A stretch of DNA of 64,000 nucleotides from Planctomycetaceae bacterium (lineage in GTDB: Bacteria > Planctomycetota > Planctomycetia > Pirellulales > Pirellulaceae). Where the stretch lies: positions 1 to 64,000 of the forward strand of contig JAHEBQ010000013.1 in the NCBI GenBank assembly GCA_024642205.1. Reading direction: 5' to 3'. Under the pieces are notes generated by a model, which did no database searches, was not told the origin of the DNA, and worked only from the letters and a program-made list of their open reading frames with translations. This document shows positions 23,985 to 31,977 of this stretch, piece by piece; position 1 is the first letter of the stretch, and every line of letters starts with the position of its first letter. The position numbers and the translations under genes were made by a program.

Positions 23985-25742
23985 TCAGGCTGCCAGCTCT
24001 TTGACGGAATTCCATTCCGGTTTGTACCATTTCAGCAACAGGCTCTGCCGGGCAAACCGATAATCCGTGACCGACCGAACGGGAAGCAAAAAGACCTCCA
24101 GATCTTCAGCCTGTCTCATCCAAAGCGCACGCGGCCCCGTCGGATCAAAAGTCGCGATCAGCCTTGACGCCAATTGGCCTGTTTCGCCTGCATACAACGG
24201 GCTGCCATCAAGTTCCCTGATCAGGTAAACGCCGGGGCCCTGGGAAATCGAATCAAAATCCAGTTCCGTCATCCGGCAACCCTGCCGCAATTTCAAGTTC
24301 TTTCTGTTGATCTCAGCAATGCCGAATTCCCTGGGCGTCCGCAGCATCGCTCGGCGCCTCGCATTGCTGCCCTCTTTACGTAACTTCAGCGCAGCCCAAC
24401 GATAATCCAGCGGCGGATATCCAGGAGCAAAACCACTGGCGATCTGATCAAACTGACCAGCGATTCGAGGATCACAAAACAACTCGTCCAGGCTCATGCA
24501 GTACTTATTGCTGATTTGCCGCCAGGCGATTTCGCTGGCGAACACAAACGGACTGACCTGCTTCCAGCCGATCTTTGTTGCCACATTGGTATCGACGTCA
24601 AACGATTTCAATTTGCCAGCCTTTCTAATCCGAAACAGAAACCTGTTTCGCTCGGCGCTGGTTCCAGGGACCGATAGCCGTTCGCAGGCCAGTTGAAAGT
24701 CGTCATTCAAAATCGGATCTGCAACAAGTCGATCAACCGAATAGCCTCGGTTGGAAACGGAAAACGCTTCAACGAGACCGGCCATTTCTGACGCAAGCTC
24801 CTCATGGATCGCTGACTCGCCCGGAAAAAGGCTCAAGGGCTCTTCCTGTTTCCGGGGTTTGCCTTTATCGGCATCCCTGGCATTGAGCGCGTTCATGCTG
24901 GGCTCTTCTGCGCCATCCAGTTTGTCCCCGATCGAAATTCCATCCAGCCGTTTTGTACCCAACCGGACGTAGTCTTTGGAAAGCTCAAATCCAAAGTACT
25001 CCCTCCCCAGTTTCTTCGCGACCGCCAGGGTTGTGGAGCTGCCGGAAAACGGGTCAATGACGACATCGCTTGGGTTGGAACATGCGCGAATGACTCTGCC
25101 AAGTAACTGCTCTGGCATCTGACAACCGTGAAACCCCGCCCGCTCCTTGAACGTGCCGGCGACGCGCGGAAAATACCAGGTATCCTCATCCGGGTTGAAC
25201 CCGTTCACCAATTCCTGCGGTCGCAAGATCCAGGTGTCGTCCGGCATTCGCCCCTCCGGATTCGCGCGCGTATCGTTGTAAACGAGGCGTCGTGCCGAGG
25301 GAACTCGTAAATCCATATCGGCGTGATTGAAAACGAAGTCTTGCCTGTCTTTGACAAAATGAAAAAGATGCGCGTGCGAACGAGTGAATTTTTTCCGGCA
25401 ATTGACTCCAAAGGTGTAATACCAAATTACCCAACTGCGACAATGAAACCCCAGGTTTTGGGCTTCGATTTTCAGCTCGGCCGCATACTCGTCACCTATG
25501 GCCAGCCAAAACGTCCCGTTGTCCTTCAGGACACGGTGAATCTCCGCCATCCAATCATGCGACCAGGCCAGGTATTGGTCATCACCAAGCCGGTCGTCGT
25601 ATTGATCGTATTTGAAACCGATATTGAATGGCGGATCCGCGAATGCCAAGTCAACCGAACCAGCGGGTACTTTCTTCAGTCCCTCAACACAGTCACCTTC
25701 GTGGATCTTCCCCAAAAACTTTGATACTTGTTTGGCCACCAT
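23985..25742 (-). CDS. Beta-class DNA methyltransferase with C-terminal GIY-YIG-like domain
   Basis: A 585-residue protein. DPPFNIGFKYD (motif IV, D36) precedes DPFSGSST (motif I, about 230-237) and FGFELS, the order of beta-class enzymes; a DPPF site suggests N6-adenine methylation. Residues about 285-490 are unassigned and could read the DNA target. The last 90 residues hold GPGVYLI (502-508), LYAGETGQLASRL (516-528, Arg527) and LLLKWYKPEWN to N578, which match the GIY-YIG nuclease pattern. The position of its metal-binding Glu appears to be Gln566, so cleavage may be lost. The ATG at 25742 has GGAGG upstream; one at 25790 adds 16 residues. No separate restriction gene adjoins it. Confidence 0.87.
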   Translation of the reverse strand: MVAKQVSKFLGKIHEGDCVEGLKKVPAGSVDLAFADPPFNIGFKYDQYDDRLGDDQYLAWSHDWMAEIHRVLKDNGTFWLAIGDEYAAELKIEAQNLGFHCRSWVIWYYTFGVNCRKKFTRSHAHLFHFVKDRQDFVFNHADMDLRVPSARRLVYNDTRANPEGRMPDDTWILRPQELVNGFNPDEDTWYFPRVAGTFKERAGFHGCQMPEQLLGRVIRACSNPSDVVIDPFSGSSTTLAVAKKLGREYFGFELSKDYVRLGTKRLDGISIGDKLDGAEEPSMNALNARDADKGKPRKQEEPLSLFPGESAIHEELASEMAGLVEAFSVSNRGYSVDRLVADPILNDDFQLACERLSVPGTSAERNRFLFRIRKAGKLKSFDVDTNVATKIGWKQVSPFVFASEIAWRQISNKYCMSLDELFCDPRIAGQFDQIASGFAPGYPPLDYRWAALKLRKEGSNARRRAMLRTPREFGIAEINRKNLKLRQGCRMTELDFDSISQGPGVYLIRELDGSPLYAGETGQLASRLIATFDPTGPRALWMRQAEDLEVFLLPVRSVTDYRFARQSLLLKWYKPEWNSVKELAA

Positions 25743-25850
25743 TTCCCTCCAGGATGATTGAGCCTTCGCTGGACCGACAAGCTGGCTCATTTGCGCTCAA
25801 GCAGACAATTTAACGACTTGCACGCTGAATTTCGAGTACTCGCAATCCAG

Positions 25851-30820: not shown

Positions 30821-31630
30821 TCAGGCGACAAGGACCTTGTTCGTCAGATGCTGGGCGATTTCGCAGACAAGATTTTTTGGCGAAAACGGTTTATCAAACC
30901 AGCGATCGACATTCACCACCCCAAACGACTCTTCTATCTCCTCCCGTTTCGCTCCACTTAGTGCGAAGATGCTTAGCCCGTTCAGCGATGGATTGGACCT
31001 GACTTCCTTGACAAATGCGGGACCATTGATTCTTGGCATCATCATGTCCAGCAACACAACGTCAGGCTTGGCGTGCATTGACAGGTAATCCAGTGCATCC
31101 TGCCCGTCTTTGGCAATGATTACTTCGAATCCGCTGACTTCAAGAAAGCCTTCCAGTAGTTTACGCTCGCAGGCTCCGTCTTCGACAATCAGTGCCTGGG
31201 TCGGGTTGTTCACCAATACGCCCGAAGCCTCCAGTACATCGTTCGCTTCGGATTCAAGTGACCGCAGTTCCTGGAACAAGTCCATCATGAATTGCTGCGA
31301 AGACTCGAGATTGACTTCGTCCACAGACTGACTGAGCTGGTTCAAAGAGGTGGCTGCCGAGGAAAGTCTGGCACGCATGATCTGCATCAGCTTGCACAAT
31401 TTCTGGTTGGATTGAAACAGGTCCGAAGTAAATTCGATGCCCTTTTTGCCAAAGGCTTCACCCTGGGTGGCAACTTTCTTGACCGCACATTCGTGCCGAA
31501 GAACTGGAATATCGGCAGGGGCGTTGATTCCGAGCCTGGTCTTGCGGCCCTGAATCTTGAGGACTTCAATCGAGATGCCAAGACTGGGAAAGAGAATTTG
31601 TTCAGATTCGCGGCGAGTCAACACGAGCAT
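30821..31630 (-). CDS. CsrA domain fused to a response-regulator receiver domain
   Basis: A 269-residue protein. Residues 1-48 are a near-complete CsrA fold: MLVLTRRESEQI, GRKTRLGINAPADIPVLRHE, with Arg45 matching the RNA-binding Arg44 of E. coli CsrA. A helical linker spans about 55-140. The receiver domain runs from about 145: acidic pair E150-D151, phospho-acceptor D195 in LLDMMMP, Ser225 (FALSGA) and Lys247 (FDKPF), all as expected for phosphorylation. No DNA-binding domain follows. AAGGAG lies six bases before the ATG at 31630; an ATG one codon earlier is in frame. It suggests translational control governed by a histidine kinase. Confidence 0.93.
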   Translation of the reverse strand: MLVLTRRESEQILFPSLGISIEVLKIQGRKTRLGINAPADIPVLRHECAVKKVATQGEAFGKKGIEFTSDLFQSNQKLCKLMQIMRARLSSAATSLNQLSQSVDEVNLESSQQFMMDLFQELRSLESEANDVLEASGVLVNNPTQALIVEDGACERKLLEGFLEVSGFEVIIAKDGQDALDYLSMHAKPDVVLLDMMMPRINGPAFVKEVRSNPSLNGLSIFALSGAKREEIEESFGVVNVDRWFDKPFSPKNLVCEIAQHLTNKVLVA

Positions 31631-31977
31631 CATATGCTCCTTAAGAATCGAGACATGGAAAGTAACTCAATTGCAGGGCGATCCAACAATGGATTCGGTG
31701 CCAATGAATCTGATTCAGTGTGCGGTATCAAATAATGCAATTGATGATGGACAATCAGATCAATGAGTATTTTTGCCAATTCGGCTGATTTCACCTAGAG
31801 CATATTTTCTGCTCACGATCTAACAAACCGCGTTGACTGGCGAACGATCACAAGATTCGCGGAAACACGGCATCCGGCTGGTCCTATTGGTGCTAGCAAT
31901 ATGGGTCCCTGCCACATAAGCTTGGGTTCTGACGGTCATGATCTGGTCTCAATTTTGAAGATGAAAAACGGACAACA
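31631..31977. other. Divergent promoter region of CsrA-receiver and L7/L12-like genes
   Basis: About 345 bp between divergent starts. It must hold both promoters and any CsrA-type leader sites. AAGGAG lies just before the minus-strand gene. No clear promoter boxes were assigned. Confidence 0.45.

Follow-up and report, generated by a model that had tools for sequence, protein, structure and literature searches.

The window, the whole 64,000-nucleotide stretch of DNA analysed here, carries on its minus strand a gene in which a DNA methyltransferase is joined to a GIY-YIG-like nuclease domain. The question raised by this locus is whether the protein is a single-chain restriction-modification enzyme with altered chemistry, or a methylase carrying a dead nuclease fold, the two alternatives that a sequence-only reading had left side by side. 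From its first ATG the open reading frame encodes 601 amino acids, and this numbering is used throughout; Gln566 of the earlier reading, which started from Met17, is Gln582 here. The alternative start, ATG at 25742, gives a 585-amino-acid protein, which is plausible because nine of the 13 closest relatives first align at residues 16-18. The features of the gene are as follows.

23985-25790, minus strand: fused gene, encoding a DNA methyltransferase, a duplicated helical domain and an inactive-looking GIY-YIG domain (601 amino acids from the first ATG)
24933-25709, minus strand: predicted beta-class N6-adenine-type DNA methyltransferase domain, residues 28-286 (PF01555, M.MboIIA match, motifs)
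24789-24932, minus strand: variable linker, residues 287-334 (mean pairwise identity 0.31 across the fused family)
24321-24788, minus strand: middle helical domain, residues 335-490, formed by a duplicated helical unit
24603-24752, minus strand: helical repeat 1, about residues 347-396 (hhalign against repeat 2)
24357-24506, minus strand: helical repeat 2, about residues 429-478 (hhalign against repeat 1)
24000-24248, minus strand: GIY-YIG fold, residues 515-597 (fold match, profile alignment)
24045-24047, minus strand: codon CAG of Gln582, at the position of the catalytic Glu (UvrC Glu76)

The N-terminal part of the protein matched Pfam family PF01555 over residues 46-278 with an E-value of 2.6e-50 (171.8 bits, for a cut-off of 26.7). 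Motif IV (DPPF, residue 52) lies ahead of motif I (DPFSGSST, in the context DPFSGSSTT, residue 246), which is the beta-class order, as first noted from the single sequence; DPPF was present ahead of motif I in all 80 readable rows of the fused family. DPPF is a mark of adenine methylation. By its PF01555 score, motif order and DPPF, the methylase of the window protein is assigned to the beta-class N6-adenine DNA methyltransferases. M.MboIIA (260 amino acids), which functions without a helical and GIY-YIG tail, was aligned end to end with it (query residues 26-279 against chain residues 4-251, E = 7.7e-24). Between motifs IV and I, the 15-residue windows had a mean identity of 0.60-0.96 in the fused family, with one exception at 0.46.

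No GIY-YIG domain was detected by Pfam in the single window protein, and a search with this protein alone gave a weak UvrC match (E = 0.0035). A tail-family profile (A2), built from the tails of 70 fused proteins together with 12 stand-alone relatives, matched UvrC GIY-YIG chains of the PDB at E = 3.3e-9, and in the profile alignment Gln582 is paired with Glu76 of T. maritima UvrC (counted back from Asn88). The AlphaFold2 model of residues 325-601 had a mean pLDDT of 94.6, and the nine best Foldseek matches of this model were all UvrC GIY-YIG domains (probability 1.00; TM, normalised by target length, 0.66-0.72), although their E-values were weak, the lowest being 0.012. The tyrosines of GVY (522) and YAG (533), Arg543 and Asn594 are retained, and Glu is replaced by Gln582. 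With its GIY and YIG strands, its Arg and its C-terminal Asn, the tail belongs, by sequence and by predicted fold, to the GIY-YIG superfamily; without the metal-binding Glu it would not be expected to be an active nuclease. The earlier proposal that the methylase is joined to a GIY-YIG fold in which Glu has become Gln is thereby confirmed in its main points. The middle helical domain (335-490) had no match in Pfam, NCBIfam or the PDB; it is made of a duplicated unit (the two repeats aligned to each other by hhalign with probability 97.1, E = 5.5e-11), which appears as helices in the AlphaFold2 model.

The window protein was searched against one genome each of 84,980 species, which gave 421 relatives. 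The best 80 were retrieved; all those placed to phylum or lower were Planctomycetota, and two were labelled just 'bacterium'. The methylase and the helical domain share one open frame in all 80. At the Glu site, the window protein and these 80 relatives have Gln in 59 cases, Arg in 11, Lys in six, Tyr in two, and Cys, His and Ala in one each, and none has Glu. Addition of further genomes and removal of 34 duplicate rows gave a non-redundant set of 93 fused copies, with 71 Gln, 11 Arg, six Lys, two Tyr, one Cys, one His, one Ala and again no Glu. The other residues are mostly kept in the fused tails (Tyr in 87 and 84 of the 93, the Arg543 position in 86, the Asn594 position in 92). By comparison, the 23 non-redundant stand-alone copies have Glu in 20 of the 21 that are readable at the site and Leu in one, the two cut-off copies being unread, and His at Arg+4 was found in 20 of the 23 stand-alone rows vs 14 of the 93 fused ones. 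The helical domain has columns that are invariant across fused and stand-alone rows; in the fused family its mean pairwise identity is 0.43-0.44, and that of the GIY part 0.24-0.29.

The same helical and GIY module also ends Eco57I-type methylases (PF07669) in three loci (L146, L147 and L148; open frames of 1113-1645 amino acids). In these three, the GIY fold is degenerate and the Glu site is Arg; the module has thus been joined to a methylase a second time. Glu is missing in both kinds of methylase fusion and present in 20 of the 21 readable copies without a methylase. Two other loci encode a HicB-like domain (PF05534) followed by the helical and GIY-YIG module (L142, 1386-2660; L157, 3911-5098, the same gene as L122); the Glu site is Leu in L142 and Glu in L157.

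The statement that no partner nuclease gene adjoins the methylase holds for the window but fails in relatives. Directly downstream of the fused gene, 12 of the 80 loci have a separate gene for a protein of about 260 amino acids related to window residues 339-594. Among the 71 loci with at least 900 nucleotides of downstream sequence, 11 have this linked gene and 60 have the tail without a linked nuclease. In the 12 pairs, the two genes overlap by 4 nucleotides in seven cases and by 1 nucleotide in two, are separated by 6 nucleotides in one, and lack an ATG near the expected start in two (where several starts were possible, the ATG nearest the fused-gene stop was chosen). Glu is retained in all 11 complete linked copies, and the two linked proteins that were scanned both scored above the Pfam GIY-YIG cut-off. 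A structure model with one stand-alone protein as query (pLDDT 90.0) matched UvrC at E = 7.7e-4; its match to R.Eco29kI (entry 3mx4, titled 'inactive variant E142Q') was weaker, at E = 0.072. With an adjacent nuclease-like gene that carries an apparently complete catalytic set, the paired relatives would be classed as Type II restriction-modification loci, and the closely coupled genes look like such a system. In three genomes with the tailed form (G052, G203 and G324), the pair may belong to a separate system, because two matches to the core methylase described below were found in each.

Conservation of the two forms was compared in 11 of the 12 pairs (L025, in which the nuclease is cut off, was omitted). 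The methylase had a mean pairwise identity of 0.69. For the helical and GIY domains the values were 0.43 and 0.24 in the fused tail, and 0.52 and 0.57 in the stand-alone protein. Thus, the GIY domain is held when it stands alone and drifts when it is fused, and the helical domain is held in both. In these 11 pairs, identities of fused tails and of stand-alone proteins correlated (Mantel r = 0.64, p = 0.0023), and no significant correlation was observed between methylase and stand-alone protein (r = 0.26, p = 0.12). Gene conversion between the fused tail and the neighbouring nuclease was rejected, as identities within and between loci were about equal (0.385 and 0.393 for the helical domain, 0.244 and 0.245 for the GIY domain). 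In an unrooted tail tree of 96 rows below 80% identity (from 119), a branch with support 96 separates the fused copies from the rest and another (84) sets apart the linked stand-alone copies, which is consistent with a single joining of tail and methylase.

The methylase itself proved to be far more widespread than its tail. With the tailless methylase of locus L171 as query (E <= 1e-60), a core methylase was found in 267 of the 297 genomes sampled from the class of the window (about 90%), a class taken from the named relatives to be Planctomycetia, nearly all the matches listed having 62-70% identity. In a phylum sample of 148 genomes it was present in 16 of 16 class members and in 11 of 132 others (52-59% identity), and 27 of 28 genomes of the window's genus had a methylase match above 250 bits. 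A linked nuclease of the tail family was found in five of the 297 class genomes, one of them partial. In the relevant part of Blow et al. (2016, PMC4752239), a methylase is counted as conserved if more than half of the species have an orthologue; the planctomycete enzyme is present in more than half of its class as an orphan with respect to the nuclease family of its tail. Both this class-wide core status and the partner nuclease gene of some relatives had been missed when the window was read by itself.

The stand-alone profile (E <= 1e-10) matched in 71 of the 297 class genomes and left 226 without a tail-family match. In 60 of these 71 genomes the match lies inside an open frame of 519-828 amino acids, the size of the fused form, the methylase being confirmed only where the locus was read. 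The best 30 methylase loci of the class search comprised six fused and 24 tailless forms. A set of 38 tailless enzymes (24 from these best loci, 11 picked and three from the genus; fragments L175 and L178, cut off or fused, were excluded) had a median of 46 residues after the methylase domain, and 36 of the 38 ends were net positive. One core methylase (L222, 1737-3716) has a lysine-rich C-terminal end of 384 residues with a net charge of +93, reminiscent of histone-H1-like tails. On an unrooted methylase tree, built from hand-picked rows (49 of the 81 tailed ones and 38 tailless) and with 38 of 83 inner branches open, presence of the tail changes 16 times, at least five of these changes being forced by well-supported (starred) branches. 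The tailless L171 enzyme, the end of which is net negative (-3), falls inside the window's own starred clade of eight rows. The tree points to repeated gain or loss of the tail, and horizontal transfer rather than loss is possible.

In the window's own genome, the stand-alone profile (E <= 1e-5) matched only two genes, the fused one and a second on another contig. The whole-genome profile search found no tail-family nuclease beside the window gene, and no Pfam nuclease was detected among six neighbouring open reading frames, two of which have no Pfam match of any kind. As judged from these searches, the window locus has no nuclease gene beside the methylase, as a Type II restriction-modification system would; a partner may have escaped detection, since the assembly is 92.5% complete. 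Within the genus, stand-alone matches were obtained in 14 of 28 genomes; they score below the linked copies and lie on contigs other than that of the close methylase, 437 kb away from it, or in a genome without a close methylase.

A gene of the window's genome (L158, 6338-7303 of contig C154) encodes, as do L119, L120, L121 and L176, a helical and GIY-YIG protein with an apparent signal peptide (by eye) and a complete catalytic set, possibly an exported nuclease. L158 was rejected as the partner nuclease: it is on another contig, has the apparent signal peptide, and has kin in genomes G374 and G427, which lack a tailed methylase. Kin were also found in G439 (83% complete), which has no close methylase. 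In G427 (C1, about 2390621-2398780), an exported-looking stand-alone gene lies about 6.6 kb from a tailless core methylase, an observation that counts against dropping L158.

Genes for a DUF900 hydrolase, a sulfatase and a 792-amino-acid protein (about 26.9-35.3 kb in the window) are also found near the methylase in L003 and L005-L009, and partly in L004, in a changed order. This fits local rearrangement around a long-resident chromosomal gene better than a recent acquisition. In the same region, 30821-31633 (minus strand) encodes a 270-amino-acid protein that combines a CsrA domain (PF02599, 2.3e-13) in its N-terminal part with a response-regulator receiver domain (PF00072, 4e-17) in its C-terminal part, apparently an RNA-binding regulator joined to a signalling domain. 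An origin from mobile elements was considered and rejected. No phage record matched the tail at E <= 0.01; 14 stretches of viral contigs fit a search pattern, but no member of the stand-alone family or relative of it is encoded there; 2364 plasmid records matched and none covers 80% of the protein, the 15 listed being aligned to the methylase part. Most of the annotated plasmid matches listed are yhdJ (34-37% identity).

We consider it probable that the window protein is a solitary m6A-type methylase derived from a former restriction-modification pair, the nuclease of which was lost, and that a dead paralogue of this nuclease was kept as an accessory tail. Several elements of this proposal are directly apparent in the sequences: the domain order, the loss of Glu, the nuclease-like neighbour in relatives, the core status of the methylase, the clade formed by the tails and their repeated gain or loss. 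The methylase domain alone would recognise and methylate its site. The tail would be a paralogue of the nuclease still encoded directly downstream in some relatives and, without the metal-binding Glu, would not cut. Its likeliest role would be accessory DNA binding, providing the methylase with extra DNA contacts. In the window lineage the partner nuclease would have been lost and the methylase would stay as an orphan, presumably epigenetic; the pair would have come first and the losses later. Fused tails are barely basic (median net charge +1 for the helical domain and +2 for the C-terminal part), so that DNA binding by the tail is suggested by nuclease homology and fold.

Other roles can be proposed for the tail. 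It was initially suggested that the middle region is a new target-recognition domain; the helical domain, either by itself or together with the dead GIY domain, would then set the methylated sequence, and the nuclease would find its site through the same module. Such a role would account for a module that is common to methylase and nuclease, that is also found on an Eco57I-type methylase in three genomes, and that is more variable than the methylase domain, as recognition domains are. Nevertheless, tailless orthologues are common (24 of the 30 best loci, and 226 of 297 class genomes without a tail-family match), the methylase is matched end to end by the tail-free M.MboIIA, and the stretch of the methylase between motifs IV and I is itself highly conserved; the suggestion is weakened by these results and we regard it as unlikely. 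To the same limited degree we would credit a protein-docking module, in which the dead GIY domain would have a protein as its partner, either the live nuclease or some other, and not DNA. The gene overlaps and the parallel divergence of fused tail and nuclease (r = 0.64) agree with docking, but the tail is kept in the window and in the 60 of 71 loci without a linked nuclease, so pairing with that nuclease is not its sole role. In a more elaborate scheme, which we rate somewhat lower, dead tail and live nuclease of the paired loci would form a mixed complex via their helical domains; the methylase would hold the cutter at unmethylated sites and release it after methylation, and in orphan lineages the dead half would persist as a clamp that retains a class-wide epigenetic methylase at its sites.

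The tail might also be a neutral leftover with no function, as the many gains or losses and the low identity of the GIY part (0.24-0.29) could suggest. Against this, the helical domain has a mean identity of 0.43-0.44 and invariant columns, Asn594 and Arg543 are kept in 92 and 86 of 93 fused copies, the predicted fold is confident, and methylase and helical domain stay in one frame in 80 of 80 relatives; this explanation is, we think, rather improbable. Finally, a single-chain restriction-modification enzyme with altered GIY-YIG chemistry, in which Gln or another residue would replace Glu, appears very unlikely. Both Tyr and the Arg are indeed mostly kept in the fused set (87, 84 and 86 of 93), but the site accepts Gln, Arg, Lys, Tyr, Cys, His and Ala and never Glu, His at Arg+4 is infrequent in fused copies (14 of 93, against 20 of the 23 that stand alone), and conservation of the GIY domain is low in the fused form (24%, against 57% for the stand-alone form). 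The Glu that would be expected of a Type IIC/IIG single-chain enzyme is absent. Hence, of the two original alternatives, a dead-looking nuclease domain carried by a methylase is retained and altered chemistry is not.

The phenomenon is real and goes beyond a single-protein curiosity; its known elements are an orphan methylase and a pseudo-nuclease. One class of bacteria shows a series, from a dead-tailed methylase with a live-looking nuclease, to the same without the nuclease, to a methylase without the tail, and with this series the origin of orphan methylases from restriction systems becomes directly testable. A methylase present in about 90% of sampled class genomes, for which no described function was found, is a candidate core epigenetic enzyme of bacteria known for their unusual cell biology. 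The replacement of Glu by Gln that occurs naturally here is like the one by which R.Eco29kI was inactivated in the laboratory, Glu142 of which we take to be the equivalent of the tail's catalytic Glu. Among open-licence papers, a weak basis for claiming absence, no description of a class-wide or tail-bearing planctomycete methylase was found, and the words 'Planctomyc' and 'Pirellula' are absent from the main text of PMC4752239.

Compared with known enzymes, the window methylase has the domain, motif order and length of the beta-class adenine methylases YhdJ, M.MboIIA and M.RsrI; these lack the helical and GIY-YIG tail, and alignments with them end near residue 286 (at or before 328 for the listed plasmid matches). 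It is below the NCBIfam cut-off for CcrM (NF050803, 124.4 of 830 bits), and is therefore not a CcrM equivalog, and below that for PRK11524 (172 of 292 bits). The nearest solved relative of the tail, in sequence and in fold, is the N-terminal GIY-YIG domain of UvrC, in which the site of Gln582 is Glu76 and which has other partner domains. Conserved orphan Type II methylases, that is Dam, CcrM and the families treated in the relevant part of PMC4752239, likewise have no nearby nuclease and are retained class-wide, as is the present enzyme (267 of 297), which differs from those described there by its dead nuclease tail. According to PMC3039593, the stop of the gene for R.Eco29kI, a GIY-YIG restriction enzyme, overlaps the methylase start, and gene overlaps are also seen in paired loci here; the fusion of R.Eco29kI with its methylase described in that work was made in the laboratory and cuts, whereas the window fusion is natural and lacks Glu. 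The DnmA-YeeB-YeeC system of Bacillus subtilis is similar in that DnmA was judged by its authors to be an orphan methylase from a restriction-system relic with a GIY-YIG/T5orf172-family neighbour; as presented in the corresponding part of PMC9973331, it differs by an MmeI-like methylase, a helicase partner and no fused dead nuclease. Lastly, the Slx1-like GIY-YIG domain fused to an NPPY methylase in Lactobacillales, as outlined in the pertinent section of PMC1564403, is also a case of a methylase fused or adjacent to a GIY-YIG domain, in which both the methylase family and the GIY-YIG family are other than those of the window protein.
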